A stretch of DNA of 36,985 nucleotides from positions 1 to 36,985 of the forward strand of contig JAITHB010000134.1 of the NCBI GenBank assembly GCA_031280145.1. The letters are read 5' to 3'. The DNA is from Oscillospiraceae bacterium. GTDB taxonomy: Bacteria > Bacillota > Clostridia > Christensenellales > Aristaeellaceae. This document shows, piece after piece, positions 5,078 through 10,739 of this stretch. The notes beneath the pieces are model-generated. The model had not been told where the DNA came from, did not search any database, and was given only the letters and a program-made list of their open reading frames with translations. Numbering within the stretch: position 1 is the first letter of the stretch; the number at the start of each line of letters is the position of its first letter. The position numbers and the translations under genes are program-made.

Positions 5078-5752
5078 TTACCCCGCCAATTTCCGCAATT
5101 TCATCAGCAGAGCCTTCTCCAAGCGGCACACCTGCGGCTGTCCCACGCCGAGAATCTTCGCGGTCTCCGACTGCGAGCGTCCGTCGAAGTAGCGCAAACG
5201 TATGAGCTTCCGCTCGCGCTCATCCAAGCCTTGAACGAGGTCGCGAATCAACACGCGCTCAAGCGGCAAAGCGGAGGTTTCATCCGCAATCAAGCCGTGC
5301 AGCGGCGTGTCGTCGTCTTCGTTTGACGCGGACGCGTCCAGCGAGATTGTCGGAATACGCGCTTCAAGCGACGCCGCAATATCTTCCGAGGAGACCCCGA
5401 GCGATCGGGCAATCTCAAGCACCGTCGGTTCACGCGCGAGCACCGCGCTCAAGCGGTCAGACTCGCGCCGCGCCTTCGCGCCCAAGTCTTGCAGCGGACG
5501 CGGAATATGCACCGCGTGGTCGCGGCGAAGGAACGCCTTCATCTCGCCGAGAATGTACGGAACGGCGTAGGTTGAGAACGCGATTCCGCGCGTGTCGTCG
5601 AACCGCTTCGCGGCTTCCGCCAAGCCAAGACAGCCCGACTGCACAATCTCGTCGCGGTCCGCGAAGCTGAAACGCTTCGCCGCGGCGTACACAAGGCGTA
5701 TATTCTGTTCTATTAAGACTTTCGTCTTTTCGTCTTTCGTGAGGGAATCCAT
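5078..5752 (-). CDS. sigF: Forespore sporulation sigma factor SigF
   Basis: 224 aa, somewhat shorter at the N-terminus than the ~255 aa family norm. First forespore-specific sigma factor, held inactive by SpoIIAB. Region 2 is clear (NIRLVYAAAKRF; CLGLAEAAKRFD; FSTYAVPYILGEMKAFLRRD), region 3 follows (TVLEIARSLGVSSEDIA), and region 4 ends the protein (LDERERKLIRLRYFDGRSQ; VGQPQVCRLEKALL). Sequence alone would not exclude SigG, but the third position in spoIIAA-spoIIAB-sigF settles it. It starts 3 nt after spoIIAB, so it is translated from the same message. Confidence 0.93.
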   Translation of the reverse strand: MDSLTKDEKTKVLIEQNIRLVYAAAKRFSFADRDEIVQSGCLGLAEAAKRFDDTRGIAFSTYAVPYILGEMKAFLRRDHAVHIPRPLQDLGAKARRESDRLSAVLAREPTVLEIARSLGVSSEDIAASLEARIPTISLDASASNEDDDTPLHGLIADETSALPLERVLIRDLVQGLDERERKLIRLRYFDGRSQSETAKILGVGQPQVCRLEKALLMKLRKLAG

Positions 5753-5755
5753 GCC

Positions 5756-6196
5756 TTACTTAGCCGATCCCTTCACCCTCTTAACCATGAATACGGACGT
5801 ACCCTGCCCCGGGCGGCTTGTGACGCGCACGTCGTCCATGAACGTCTGCATGACGGCGAAGCCCATGCCCGCGCGTTCCATTTCAGGCTGACTGGTGAAG
5901 AACGGCGTCATTGCCTGCGATATGTCGTCTATGCCGCAGCCCGTGTCGCTTACGTCAATGATGACGCGTCCGTCGTCCCACAGCGAAGCGTCAATCACGA
6001 CCTCGCCCGATTCGTCCTTATAGCCGTGTACAATGGCGTTCGTCACGGCTTCCGAGACCGCCGTCTTCACGTCGTTTATCTCTTCCAGCGTGGGGGAAAG
6101 CTGCGACATGAACGCGCTTACAGCAACCCTTGCGAAGCTTTCGTTTGCGCTTTTGCTGTCGAAGCACAGCCGCATATGGTTTTTTCTTATATTCAT
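5756..6196 (-). CDS. spoIIAB: Anti-sigma-F factor / SpoIIAA kinase SpoIIAB
   Basis: 146 aa, the family length. GHKL-type protein kinase that binds and silences SigF and phosphorylates SpoIIAA. N box EAVTNAIVHGY, G1 box DTGCGI and G2 box GMGFAVM are intact, as is the NESFARV segment near the N-terminus whose Arg contacts both SigF and SpoIIAA in studied homologues. The start ATG overlaps the spoIIAA stop by 4 nt (ATGA). Confidence 0.96.
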   Translation of the reverse strand: MNIRKNHMRLCFDSKSANESFARVAVSAFMSQLSPTLEEINDVKTAVSEAVTNAIVHGYKDESGEVVIDASLWDDGRVIIDVSDTGCGIDDISQAMTPFFTSQPEMERAGMGFAVMQTFMDDVRVTSRPGQGTSVFMVKRVKGSAK

Positions 6197-6516
6197 AATG
6201 AAGACGCCTCCCCGCGGCCGTTATCAAGAATGGTGTAAAGCCCCGTAAGTTTCATAACGCGGCGGATGTGCGCGCTTTCGCCCGTCACCGAAACGCCGCC
6301 GCCGCGCCGCGCAAGCGTTCTGTAACGCCCGATTATAACGCCTATTCCGCTGCTGTCCATGAAGGTGAGGTTGCGCATGTCCAGCGTTAGGTGGCGTATG
6401 CGCGTGTCTTCGATGAGGTTGTCCAGCTCTTCGCGGACGACCTGCGAACTGTTCTGATCGAGTTCGCCTTCGAGCATCACGGTTAACACAGTGCCTTGTC
6501 TTGAGTATTTTAACAT
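6193..6516 (-). CDS. spoIIAA: Anti-anti-sigma-F factor SpoIIAA
   Basis: 107 aa STAS-domain protein. When dephosphorylated by SpoIIE it displaces SigF from SpoIIAB in the forespore. The phosphorylation loop FMDSSGIGVIIGRY is intact; the second Ser (Ser56) matches the phosphorylated Ser58 of Bacillus. GELDQN early in the protein and the C-terminal TGLYTIL helix are typical. First gene of the operon. The phosphatase gene spoIIE is not in the window. Confidence 0.95.
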   Translation of the reverse strand: MLKYSRQGTVLTVMLEGELDQNSSQVVREELDNLIEDTRIRHLTLDMRNLTFMDSSGIGVIIGRYRTLARRGGGVSVTGESAHIRRVMKLTGLYTILDNGRGEASSL

Positions 6517-6843: not shown

Positions 6844-6971
6844 GTAGGGGCGATTTCCAATCGCCCGCCGGTCGGTCGTACGTCCCACCCACACCGCCGG
6901 ATGCGTATGTCTGCCTACGGCGAAATGGGACGTACGCGTAACAGGCGGGCGACCGAGGCGGTCGCCCCTAC
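6844..6971. repeat. Modular palindromic repeat, spacer type C (copy 1)
   Basis: 128 bp with outer inverted ends: GTAGGGGCGATTTCCAATCG on the left and CGACCGAGGCGGTCGCCCCTAC on the right. The ~75-bp centre (CGTACGTCCCAC ... GTATGTCTGCCTACGGCGAA ... GGGACGTACGCG) is related in reverse complement to the centre of the element at 32654-32779. The right end overlaps the stop codon of the next gene (6968-6970). Confidence 0.8.
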
Positions 6972-7525
6972 AAAGGTAATATTTGGAAATTCCCATTTTC
7001 GTTTCCTGTTTTTTCAATAATCCATTTTTCAATCTGTTGCGCGGTTTCCTCCGGCGTAAGGTCTGAATTGTCCAGCAATGTCATGGACGGTTCGGTCTTC
7101 TCACCGTTTTCTTGCAGCCAGCGATTGAAATGAAGAGATGATGCAATCCGGTTTTTATCATTGATGCCGCGGCCTTCACGCATTCGGCGCTCCATCACGT
7201 CGTCGCTGCATACGATGGCGAGGTAGTATATATCCGTGAAATATTTCCTTGCGCCGCAAACCTCAAAATGACGCGGTTCACCGCATCCGCACAGCACACA
7301 GGGCTTACCGATCTGCGAGATATTCGCGCACATGGTCAGCCACAGCTCCCGATAAGCGCGGTAGCCGTCGTCCGGATCGCCATCAAAAATATTGTTCCAT
7401 AGAATATCGCTTTCCAGTACAACGTAATCTGTTTCCCTTTGGAAAAGCACTTCACAGGCACAGGATTTGCCAACGCCGCTCGCGCCGGATACAATGAACA
7501 GCGGTTGTTTTTTCGTGGGTATCAT
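6968..7525 (-). CDS. P-loop nucleoside/shikimate-kinase-like protein
   Basis: 185 aa. Residues 8-21 form a beta strand and Walker A motif (LFIVSGASGVGKS), followed by ESDILWNN and a DxxxMERRMREGRG segment like the LID/Arg region of small-molecule kinases. No substrate can be assigned; it resembles the broad AAA_33 / nucleoside-monophosphate-kinase-like families. The TAG stop lies inside the terminal GTAGGGG of a palindromic repeat, so the last ~10 residues (NENGNFQILPL) may have been altered by repeat insertion. It stands alone, with no operon partner. Confidence 0.75.
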   Translation of the reverse strand: MIPTKKQPLFIVSGASGVGKSCACEVLFQRETDYVVLESDILWNNIFDGDPDDGYRAYRELWLTMCANISQIGKPCVLCGCGEPRHFEVCGARKYFTDIYYLAIVCSDDVMERRMREGRGINDKNRIASSLHFNRWLQENGEKTEPSMTLLDNSDLTPEETAQQIEKWIIEKTGNENGNFQILPL

Positions 7526-7583: not shown

Positions 7584-9167
7584 CTACATCGAATCAATGA
7601 ACCTCACAAAAAGCGGGTGCGGCTTATCAGGGCGAGAAAGGAACTCCGGATGATATATCACGCCAAGGTAGAACGGATGCTCGGGACGCTCGAACGCTTC
7701 GATAAAGCCGTCCTGCTTGTCTATCGCGGGGAAGCGAACGCCCTTCTCCGTCAACTGCTGAACATACGCGTGGTTCACCTCAAAGCGGTTGCTGTGGCGT
7801 TCGCGCACCTCGCGCAGTCCGCCGTAGCATTTGGACAGAAGGCTGTCGGACGAGATAACGATGGTCTGCCCGCCCATGCGCGAACGCTCCGAGCCCGTTT
7901 TGTCCGCGCGTTCCTTTGGCATACGGATGATGGGATCGGGTGTGTTTACATCAACTTCCGTTGTGTGGCTGCGCGGCAGGCTAAGCAGACCGCGCGCGGA
8001 CATGACGAGCGCGAGCTGCATACCGTAACCGATGGCGAGGAACGGCAGCTTATGCATATACGCGTAGCCGGCGGCTGCGATTATCCCTTCCGCGCCGCGC
8101 TTGCCGTGACCGCCGGGCGCGATAATCGCGTCAAGCCCAGCCAGATACTTTTCCGCGCCGTCCACTTCTATAGACTGACCCGATATCCACTTTATGTTCA
8201 CGCCGATGCGCCGAAGCGTTCCCGCGTGGCGAAGAGCTTCCGCGATTGAGCGGTACGCGTCGTGCATCTCTACATACTTGCCGACCAAACCGACGTTCAC
8301 GGTGCGCTCCGTGTTCTTCGCGCGTTCGACCATGGCAATCCATTCGGTCAAATCCGCGTCGCGTCCGTGCATATCCAACGCGGAAAGAACCTTATCGCCC
8401 AAGCCCTCCGCTTCGAGCGCGAGCGGCGCTTCATATATATCCGACATATCCAAATTTTCGATGACGCACTCGGTCGTCACGTTGCAGAACAGCGCTATCT
8501 TCTCGCGGGATTCCGTTGTGAGGCTCACGTCGCAGCGGCAGACAAGCAGGTTCGGTTGAATACCGATTGAACGCAGCGCCTTCACGCTGTGCTGCGTGGG
8601 CTTGGTCTTTATTTCAAGCTCGCTTCCGACCGTCGGAAGGTATGTCACGTGGATGTAGCAGCAGTCGCAAGGCGGCGCCTCCCACTTCATCTGCCGGATG
8701 GCTTCGAGGAACGGGGCGCATTCCATATCGCCGACGGTGCCGCCTATCTCGATGATTGCAACGTCGCCGCCCGCGTCCGCCGCCGCGCAGATTATGCGGC
8801 GCTTTATCTCGTCGGTGACATGCGGAATCATCTGGATGGTCGCGCCGCGATACGCGCCCTTCTGCTCCTGTTCCATAATGGAGCGGTGGATAAGCCCCGT
8901 TGTGACGCTGGCTTCACCGCCGAGCGTCTCGTCCGTGAAACGCTCGAAGTGACCTATGTCGCGGTCGGTGGGAGTGCCGTCTTCCGTTATATATATTTCA
9001 CCGCGCTGAAGCGGGCTGAGCAAGCCCTGGTCAATATTGTAGTAAGGGTCCATCTTCTGCATTGAGACGGAAAGACCGCGCGCCTTCAGCAGTCGTCCGA
9101 GCGCGGCGGCGGTTATCCCCTTGCCCAGCGACGACGCGACGCCGCCCGTTACGAACACATATTTCAT
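7584..9167 (-). CDS. pyrG: CTP synthase with a substituted glutaminase nucleophile
   Basis: 527 aa, normal length. Converts UTP to CTP using ATP and nitrogen from glutamine or ammonia. Start at 9167 has GAGG 8 nt upstream; the GTG at 9176 and ATG at 9173 sit too close to it. The synthase half is intact: FVTGGVASSLGKG, EDGTPTDRDIGHFERF, GGTVGDMECAPFLEAIRQ, KTKPTQHSVKALR, SDIYEAPL. The class I glutaminase half keeps APGG, the TTE segment and the His/Glu pair (HPEF, His506/Glu508). The nucleophile motif normally reading GICLGMQ reads AIGYGMQ here, so Cys is Gly380 (GGT at 8028-8030), and the oxyanion motif GGFG reads GGHG. Glutamine hydrolysis should be lost. The enzyme may use free ammonia, or the sequence may be wrong. 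Confidence 0.93.
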   Translation of the reverse strand: MKYVFVTGGVASSLGKGITAAALGRLLKARGLSVSMQKMDPYYNIDQGLLSPLQRGEIYITEDGTPTDRDIGHFERFTDETLGGEASVTTGLIHRSIMEQEQKGAYRGATIQMIPHVTDEIKRRIICAAADAGGDVAIIEIGGTVGDMECAPFLEAIRQMKWEAPPCDCCYIHVTYLPTVGSELEIKTKPTQHSVKALRSIGIQPNLLVCRCDVSLTTESREKIALFCNVTTECVIENLDMSDIYEAPLALEAEGLGDKVLSALDMHGRDADLTEWIAMVERAKNTERTVNVGLVGKYVEMHDAYRSIAEALRHAGTLRRIGVNIKWISGQSIEVDGAEKYLAGLDAIIAPGGHGKRGAEGIIAAAGYAYMHKLPFLAIGYGMQLALVMSARGLLSLPRSHTTEVDVNTPDPIIRMPKERADKTGSERSRMGGQTIVISSDSLLSKCYGGLREVRERHSNRFEVNHAYVQQLTEKGVRFPAIDKQDGFIEAFERPEHPFYLGVIYHPEFLSRPDKPHPLFVRFIDSM

Positions 9168-9196
9168 ATTCATCACCTCAAAACGCCAATAGGCGA

Positions 9197-9288: not shown

Positions 9289-9317
9289 CACACAGGATAA
9301 ACAAGCCCGCATAATAT
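9289..9317 (+). promoter_or_regulatory. Sigma-K-like promoter of dpaAB
   Basis: CACA at 9289-9292, then 16 nt, then GCATAATAT (9309-9317). This matches the mother-cell sigma-K pattern mACm-N16-gCATAnnnT exactly. The Bacillus orthologues (spoVFA-spoVFB) are sigma-K dependent. The start point would fall near 9324, next to the ribosome binding site, giving a very short leader. Confidence 0.6.
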
Positions 9318-9336
9318 GATTTCGGGGGTGGACAAA

Positions 9337-10149
9337 ATGCAGTTGCTTATAATAGGCGGAGACCTTCGCGCGCACGGATTCGCGAGACTGGCGAGAACGG
9401 ACGGGCATGAGGTATTCACTTTCGGACACGGCGAGGAACAAGCTTCGGTAATACCGGACACATATGACATAGTCCTTCTGCCGATACCGATTGCCGAACA
9501 AGGCGGCTACATTCCCTGCGTCTTGTCTTCCGAACCAATACTTCTGCCGACCATATCAGGTCTTCTCACAGGCGGAATTTGGGGAGGAAGACAGGGTGCA
9601 ATGTTGTCTTCCGTACTTTTAAAGAACGGTCTTATATGCCAAGACCCAAACGAGATTGAAACGTACGCCGTCGCGAACGCGTATCTTTCCGCCGAGGGCG
9701 CGGTTGTTTCCGCGCTGGCGCGCTACCCTGACACGATAAAGGGCGCGCCCGTGCTTGTCGTGGGATACGGGCGGATAGGGCGAAGCCTTGTGCGGCTGCT
9801 TGCCGCGTGGGGCGCGGACGTAACCGTCGCGGCGCGGGATACCGTGCAGCGCGAGTGGGCGAAGGCGGAAGGCGCGAAGGCGGTCGATATGGCGGAGCTT
9901 TCTGACGCGGCGGCATCGAATAGGATAATATTCCAGACTGCGCCCGCTATGCTTATAAACGAAGTTGTCATACCATCGATAAGAAAAGGCACGCTGGTTT
10001 CCGACCTCACAAGGTCGGGAGTTGATATAGAGCGCGCGAGCGCGAACGGACTGATAGCGTGGCGCGACAGCGGCATTCCGGGCAAGTACGCGCCAGACGC
10101 CGCGGCGAAGATTCTTTATGACACGATAATGACGGCGCATAAAGCATAA
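9337..10149 (+). CDS. dpaA: Dipicolinate synthase subunit A
   Basis: 270 aa. With DpaB it oxidises the product of dihydrodipicolinate synthase to dipicolinic acid in the mother cell; DPA is then loaded into the spore core. The N-terminal half is DpaA-specific (MQLLIIGGDLRAHGFARLA; PIAEQGGYIPC), followed by an NAD(P)-binding Rossmann fold (VVGYGRIGRSLVRLLAAWGA). Start at 9337 is set by GGGGGTGG immediately upstream; the earlier ATG at 9316 lies inside the -10 element. dpaB follows after 17 nt. Confidence 0.94.
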   Translation: MQLLIIGGDLRAHGFARLARTDGHEVFTFGHGEEQASVIPDTYDIVLLPIPIAEQGGYIPCVLSSEPILLPTISGLLTGGIWGGRQGAMLSSVLLKNGLICQDPNEIETYAVANAYLSAEGAVVSALARYPDTIKGAPVLVVGYGRIGRSLVRLLAAWGADVTVAARDTVQREWAKAEGAKAVDMAELSDAAASNRIIFQTAPAMLINEVVIPSIRKGTLVSDLTRSGVDIERASANGLIAWRDSGIPGKYAPDAAAKILYDTIMTAHKA

Positions 10150-10166
10150 CTAATGAGGTGATTTAC

Positions 10167-10739
10167 ATGGCAAAGACAAAAATCGGATTCGCGCTGACCG
10201 GCTCATTCTGCACGTTCAAGCGCGTTCTTGATGTTGTAGAAGACTTGGTTAAACTTGGGTTTGACGTTCTGCCGATTCTTTCATACGCGTCGTCCGCTTC
10301 CGACACGCGCTTCATGAAGGCGGAATTCCTAAAGAGCGAACTTATGCGCGTTACGGGACACGCGCCGCTTGACACGCTCCAGCAAGTAGAACCGATAGGT
10401 CCCAAAAAGATGGTGGACGCGCTCGTTATCGCTCCGTGCACGGGCAACTCGCTGGCAAAGCTGGCGCACGGTATCGCCGACACGCCCGTTCTGCTTGCCG
10501 CGAAATCTACGCTGCGCAACGCGAATCCCGTCGTGATAGGCGTATCGACGAACGACGGACTCGCCGCCGCCGCGCAGAACATCGGCATCCTTCTCGCGCG
10601 CAAGAATATCTATTTCGTCCCGTTCGGGCAGGACGACCACATCGCGAAGCCCGCCTCCATCGTCGCGCACATGGAGAAGGTTGCGCAGACGCTGGAAGCC
10701 GCCTTGCAGGGGAAACAGGTTCAGCCGGTGCTGGAGTAA
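10167..10739 (+). CDS. dpaB: Dipicolinate synthase subunit B (flavoprotein)
   Basis: 190 aa, standard length. Flavoprotein-family partner of DpaA. Typical motifs: FALTGSFCTF at the N-terminus, VIAPCTGNSLAKLAHGIADT, and STNDGLAAAAQNIG. Start at 10167 has GAGGTG 6 nt upstream and gives the canonical MAKTKIGFALTGS beginning. Same operon and same sigma-K promoter as dpaA. Some Clostridia lack this pair and use EtfA instead; this genome has the dedicated enzyme. Confidence 0.95.
   Translation: MAKTKIGFALTGSFCTFKRVLDVVEDLVKLGFDVLPILSYASSASDTRFMKAEFLKSELMRVTGHAPLDTLQQVEPIGPKKMVDALVIAPCTGNSLAKLAHGIADTPVLLAAKSTLRNANPVVIGVSTNDGLAAAAQNIGILLARKNIYFVPFGQDDHIAKPASIVAHMEKVAQTLEAALQGKQVQPVLE

Follow-up and report, generated by a model that had tools for sequence, protein, structure and literature searches.

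The window, that is, the whole stretch of 36,985 nucleotides analysed here, carries a paralogous CTP synthase (PyrG) gene, in which the catalytic cysteine of the glutaminase half is replaced by glycine. This paralogue probably works as an ammonia-fed CTP synthase, unable to split glutamine and selectively kept alongside a glutamine-dependent PyrG in a gut-type bacterium. CTP synthase is treated and annotated as always glutamine-dependent, and in a survey of about 800 genomes, 100% of PyrGs were fused to a glutaminase domain, none lacking it (PMC3376133). No natural glutaminase-dead CTP synthase was found in a literature search, which was largely limited to open-access papers.

The gene and its product

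The gene (7584-9167, minus strand) starts with an ATG at 9167-9165, ends with a stop codon at 7586-7584, and encodes 527 amino acids. A GAGGTG element resembling a ribosome-binding site, read directly at 9174-9179, precedes this ATG with a spacing of 6, and other in-frame starts lie upstream (ATG at 9173, GTG at 9176). The product combines a synthase (amidoligase) domain, CTP_synth_N (8373-9164, 362 bits), with a class I glutaminase (GATase) domain (7593-8267, 81 bits), both placed by Pfam and residue alignment and fused over the full length, as in the CTP synthase family. It is 43-44% identical to the E. coli enzyme, and its AlphaFold2 model (pLDDT 91) superimposes on E. coli CTP synthase 5tkv with a Z of 49.7 and 1.2 Å over 515 residues; by fold, it is thus predicted to be a full two-domain CTP synthase. 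The NCBIfam model TIGR00337, named ‘glutamine hydrolyzing CTP synthase’, is passed with 623 bits (cut-off 462.75) despite the lost cysteine, so annotation transfer from the family score is wrong as regards the glutamine-hydrolysing activity. The match to PRK06186 (CTP synthase C-terminal-region-related (seleno)protein) reaches 102 bits, below the curated cut-off of 260.

The glutaminase half

Codon reading and alignment place Gly380 (GGT, 8028-8030, motif AIGYGMQ) at the position of the catalytic E. coli Cys379, as the first-pass annotation had reported. Glycine occupies this column in 32/32 members of the orthologue clade described below, against cysteine in 33/33 canonical PyrGs compared, and the Cys-His-Glu triad implied by the TIGR00337 name is therefore incomplete throughout the clade. 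A stand-in nucleophile was sought among the other cysteines, and this alternative was rejected, since none is conserved across the GATase domain of the clade. In this respect, the domain resembles ammonia-only amidotransferases, having no functional glutaminase nucleophile. The nucleophile of class I glutaminases sits at a strained backbone position, which may be why glycine is favoured at this site.

Much of the remaining pocket is preserved. The triad residues His515 and Glu517 (HPEF, 7641-7652) and the oxyanion glycine (E. coli Gly352) are present in 32/32 clade members, Arg470 and Gln383 in all but one, and Glu403 in all but two. In the window protein, the oxyanion segment reads GGHG (8103-8114), with histidine for Phe353, which corresponds to Drosophila Phe373, located at the glutamine entrance and the GTP stack (PMC8325340). 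The segment RHRHR has become RHSNR (7785-7799), combining R468S and H469N with an unchanged Arg470, and a further, clade-specific replacement in the glutamine pocket turns Gln513 into isoleucine or valine. The retained His515, Glu517, and Arg470 may support the domain interface, sense glutamine by binding it, or help to admit ammonium. The retention of His515, Glu517, Arg470, Gln383, and Glu403 exceeds what a dead domain needs and counts against the ammonia-fed reading.

The first-pass annotation had invoked three coordinated changes, two of which it misread. The tyrosine that follows the lost cysteine does not by itself inactivate, as it is also found in normal GuaA, which reads GICYGMQ, including that of the window genome itself, and GGHG leaves the oxyanion glycine in place, the histidine sitting at Phe353. 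Stronger evidence, absent from that annotation, comes from H57R, E68P, L109R, R468S, and H469N.

An ancient and conserved clade

A profile search through 308 genomes of the window genome's family retrieved the orthologue in 32 genomes of 15 genera, most of these sequences scoring well above the canonical copies. The 32 orthologues form one clade (SH-aLRT 100), separate from every canonical PyrG encoded in those genomes. When about 85,000 species genomes were scanned with a signature that detects only the G[YF]GMQ form, 27 clade members were retrieved, and none outside the clade's lineage. These belong to metagenome-assembled genomes (MAGs) named Christensenellaceae, Clostridia, Clostridiales, Oscillospiraceae, or similar, for example Candidatus Limiplasma, Candidatus Aphodomonas, and Candidatus Avichristensenella, and many of the MAG names point to rumen, chicken gut, or digester.

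The change from cysteine to glycine is ancient and fixed in the clade. Sequencing error is rejected, because every orthologue carries glycine, which bears out the earlier view that no base error is involved; the alignment of homologues suggested at that stage yields no clade member with a GICLGMQ-type cysteine. Judged from these alignments, the loss of glutamine hydrolysis is very likely real and old, every close homologue carrying glycine.

That the gene might be a duplicate that died recently or is now decaying, or a product of sequencing or binning error, is extremely improbable, and for the clade as a whole this explanation is refuted. The window branch is indeed longer than those of its sisters (0.49 vs. 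0.07-0.17), but the frame is open, the synthase residues are complete, glycine orthologues occur across the genera, and dN/dS is low, at about 0.1-0.3 between nearest clade pairs (approximate values, with dS of 0.8-1.0). The low dN/dS indicates that the window gene is not decaying, and the window copy deviates at only 2 near-invariant clade sites. In nearest-pair comparisons, the GATase half evolves faster than the synthase half. The median GATase/synthase divergence ratio is 1.51 in the clade vs. 1.30 in canonical PyrGs, so the GATase half of the clade is only mildly relaxed.

Synthase site, tunnel, and GTP coupling

The amidoligase half is intact, as had been noted at first together with the retained His/Glu pair. 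All the residues binding ATP, Mg, and UTP (K18, K40, D72, E140, Q114, D147, E149, K187, K189, Q192, K223, and F227, E. coli numbering) are present in the window protein, and most are present in 32/32 clade members, the sole exception to a complete site being aspartate for E140 in one sequence (L086).

The residues that couple the two halves have fared differently. By codon reading and alignment, the window protein has arginine (CGC, 8847-8849) at E. coli Leu109, a coupling residue that contacts GTP from the neighbouring subunit, and proline (CCC, 8970-8972) at Glu68 in the GTP cleft. It also has arginine (CGC, 9003-9005) at His57, at the ammonia-tunnel gate, a replacement found only in the window's 5-member subclade. 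All clade members have lost L109 (to H, R, K, or Q), E68 (to A or P), R468 (to G, S, D, or E), and H469 (to N); V60 is replaced in nearly all, R104 in most, and F353 in 25/32. The set of GTP-dependent coupling residues (L109, R468, E68, F353, R356, and R470) is therefore incomplete, R356 being mostly and R470 almost always retained.

In E. coli PyrG, the tunnel gate includes Val60, the modelled GTP cleft is lined by Glu68 and Arg468, and external NH3 can be kept from entering by GTP (PMC9138612). In the Drosophila enzyme, Leu107, Arg479, Phe373, and Arg376 contact GTP (PMC8325340). By alignment, the GTP-touching residues correspond to E. coli Leu109, Arg468, Phe353, Arg356, and Arg470, the equivalence of Drosophila Arg479/481 with Arg468/470 being drawn from the alignment. 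Weakened GTP control is therefore probable in the clade, as far as residue comparisons can indicate. GTP may still bind, since K297 and Y298, which contact its phosphates, and Arg470, which contacts its guanine, are retained.

Further clade-specific changes lie near the nucleotide site or the gate (I148M, F153Y, T51L/F, M52L, and V60A), and those at I148, F153, and T51/M52 could signal altered substrate use. The enzyme might then transfer another amine onto C4 of UTP or accept a different pyrimidine nucleotide, the former glutamine pocket now holding the new nucleophile. The pocket itself would fit such a change, with R468, H469N, and Q513I/V altered while His515 and Glu517 stay. Nevertheless, the UTP-contacting residues are all conserved, and none of the neighbouring genes that clade members have in common points to nucleotide modification or to an amine pathway, which makes a changed substrate quite unlikely.

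A second, canonical PyrG in the host genome

The window genome is a 2.19 Mb MAG, 93% complete. The search for a second pyrG that the first-pass annotation had proposed was successful: another PyrG (G000:C26), with the motif GICLGLQ, adjoins purA and is 44% identical to the window copy. The other amidotransferases of this genome also have their cysteine, namely GuaA (GICYGMQ, L186) and CarA (GICLGHQ), and so does a short class I glutaminase (GICLGMQ, L197). Since the other PyrG, GuaA, and CarA retain the cysteine, the nucleophile loss is specific to the paralogue, and with a PyrG of the normal type at hand, the cell need not rely on ammonia to make CTP.

A second PyrG match is found in 27/32 carriers, the window genome included, and it has the cysteine in all eight sequences read (L002, L093-L098, and L100). 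There is thus no support for the idea that the paralogue has displaced the normal enzyme. No second PyrG was found in the other five carriers, four of which are 91-95% complete. These single-copy cases prove little, since no PyrG at all was found in 97/308 genomes of the family, including 32/120 high-quality ones, some of them 97-99% complete. As a side observation, the canonical PyrGs of L002, L096, and L097 have arginine, glutamine, or serine at the nucleotide-site residue Phe227, otherwise mostly phenylalanine, which all Cys-less clade members retain.

The frequent presence of a canonical partner could also fit a regulatory pseudo-subunit, which would form mixed tetramers or filaments with the canonical PyrG, or titrate a ligand, its own catalysis being unimportant. 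Pocket histidine, glutamate, and arginine retained without a nucleophile are what a binding-only domain would have. This explanation is nonetheless unlikely: a pure regulator would not need all the ATP, Mg, and UTP residues, the paralogue shares merely 44% identity with the canonical partner of its genome, and no second PyrG was found in five carriers.

Glutamine synthetase is present in 30/32 carriers, including the window genome, and glutamine shortage is therefore rejected as the cause in this clade. As the genome has both glutamine synthetase and a normal PyrG, an ammonia-fed enzyme has no obvious need to fill.

Gene neighbourhood

The window pyrG is flanked by spoIIAA/spoIIAB/sigF-like and dpaA/dpaB-like dipicolinate synthase genes (5078-6516 and 9316-10739), suggesting that the host may be a spore-former. 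A sporulation-linked role was rejected, the association being incidental, as relatives have different neighbours. Downstream of pyrG, in the same orientation, lies a small AAA kinase-like gene (6968-7525). Among the neighbourhoods of relatives examined, no partner gene is shared across genera. Synteny is confined to subgroups: DUF1934 and a metallo-beta-lactamase-like gene lie upstream of the paralogue in two genera, and a SAM methyltransferase lies downstream in another group. No ammonia-related neighbour or operon is common to the clade members. In one relative (G033), and not in the others examined, a type III glutamine synthetase gene (L034:3088-5199) is found directly downstream of the Cys-less pyrG.

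A separate ammonia donor had been suggested as one source of nitrogen, which these neighbourhoods do not bear out, since none of those examined holds a linked donor subunit or glutaminase and the neighbours are not common across genera. An unlinked glutaminase could still dock on the dead domain and supply it with ammonia: split synthase/glutaminase pairs are common among other amidotransferases (PMC3376133), and the domain surface is retained. Such docking is very improbable, given the lack of any linked candidate in the neighbourhoods examined and the fact that the other GATase genes found in the window genome (CarA, GuaA, the second PyrG, and L197) are each explainable by their own pathway.

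Ammonia as the probable nitrogen donor

Two precedents point to free ammonia. The G352P variant of E. coli PyrG loses glutaminase activity and keeps the NH3-dependent reaction (PMC9138612), and carbamoyl phosphate synthetase 1 (CPS1), with serine for cysteine, has likewise lost its glutaminase and still uses NH3 (PMC4655335). Because glutaminase loss in PyrG and other amidotransferases spares the NH3-dependent reaction, NH3 is the best-inferred nitrogen donor, and the ammonia-fed reading follows from these precedents together with the intact synthase site. Thus, of the initial proposal of an ammonia supply, free NH3 stands as the best inference for the enzyme, and a dependence of the organism on ammonia for CTP does not, given the normal second PyrG, GuaA, and CarA.

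In the proposed mechanism, the synthase half would phosphorylate UTP with ATP, and then aminate it with NH3 from the medium or cytosol, which would probably enter through the inter-domain cleft, a passage plugged by GTP in ordinary CTP synthases. What is left of the glutaminase half would have a structural role and might also bind a ligand. The paralogue would be expected to have no glutaminase activity, to be active with NH3 with weak or no GTP dependence, and to serve at high ammonia, the cell running it beside the glutamine-dependent PyrG in the way that other cells combine AsnA with AsnB, or CPS1 with a glutamine-using CPS. A bolder version, which we consider doubtful, is that the clade is a dedicated GTP-uncoupled CTP synthase, whose His/Glu/Arg pocket and glycine would capture and deprotonate ammonium or take another amine, as one case of a convergent Cys-to-Gly switch to ammonia in class I amidotransferases (PyrG, GuaA, and CarA).

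The paralogue shares with canonical PyrG (E. coli, M. tuberculosis; TIGR00337) the whole fold, the synthase residues, the glutaminase His/Glu, and the oxyanion glycine, and differs by the Cys-to-Gly change and the replacement of L109, E68, R468, H469, and mostly V60. Mammalian CPS1 is similar in having a class I GATase domain without a nucleophile, in being fed by free ammonia, and in occurring in an organism that also has a glutamine-using enzyme (PMC4655335), but it is another synthase, has a serine replacement, and requires N-acetylglutamate. The single-domain NAD synthetase NadE is also an ammonia-only member of an otherwise glutamine-dependent family (PMC3376133), although it lacks the glutaminase domain altogether. 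Archaeal PurF’ is a paralogue with an altered active site beside a normal enzyme, its ammonia use being only proposed (PMC3261824), but it is a class II amidotransferase of unrelated fold. With its lineage-wide loss of the nucleophile alongside a normal PyrG, the paralogue constitutes a natural experiment on the coupling between GTP, tunnel, and glutaminase.

Cys-to-Gly replacements in other amidotransferases

Cys-to-Gly PyrGs also occur outside the clade, in L031, Tepidanaerobacter (L159), Cerasibacillus (L161/L181), L164, L165/L166, and L167/L168. They likewise have glycine at the nucleophile position and a synthase domain, but are at least partly of independent origin, keep E68, R468, and H469 in all cases, and are mostly the sole PyrG. 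About six Cys-to-Gly changes are needed on the PyrG tree, and one origin for all Cys-less PyrGs is disfavoured (AU p 0.04); independent origins are favoured, and not proven for each. In most genomes of these outside cases, the Gly PyrG is the only one found, including the isolate Cerasibacillus quisquiliarum DSM 15825, which suggests that it can serve as the CTP synthase.

This isolate (G341; L171, L181, and L187) has glycine in GuaA, PyrG, and CarA, CarA also reading NPE for HPE, and no match to glutamine synthetase (PF00120) was found in its genome. Tepidanaerobacter sp. EBM-38 combines glycine in PyrG and GuaA with a genome in which no glutamine synthetase match was found. Glutamine synthetase was not found in 7/19 genomes chosen for a Gly GuaA vs. 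2/32 clade carriers, these being uncorrected counts from partly incomplete genomes and from sets picked by a Gly-specific pattern. The change recurs in PyrG, GuaA, and CarA, in some cases in genomes that gave no glutamine synthetase match, and this suggests that ammonia-fed nucleotide synthesis may be more widespread in ammonia-rich habitats.

A GuaA-like motif with glycine for cysteine, GIGYGMQ, was seen in about 19 diverse genomes, among them Pelotomaculum, Tepidanaerobacter, Halanaerobiaceae, Campylobacteraceae, and others (L101, L109, L113, L114, L116, L121, L123, L125, L127, L130-L132, L134, L137, L145, L146, and L153-L155). In L031/L039 (G058) and L165/L166 (G336/G335), the sole PyrG found lacks both the cysteine and the histidine of the triad, the latter being replaced by glutamine (QPE) in L031 and by glutamate (EPE) in L165/L166. 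The nucleotide-site residues K189, K223, and F227 are also changed in L165/L166, and the CarA of G058 has serine in place of the cysteine.
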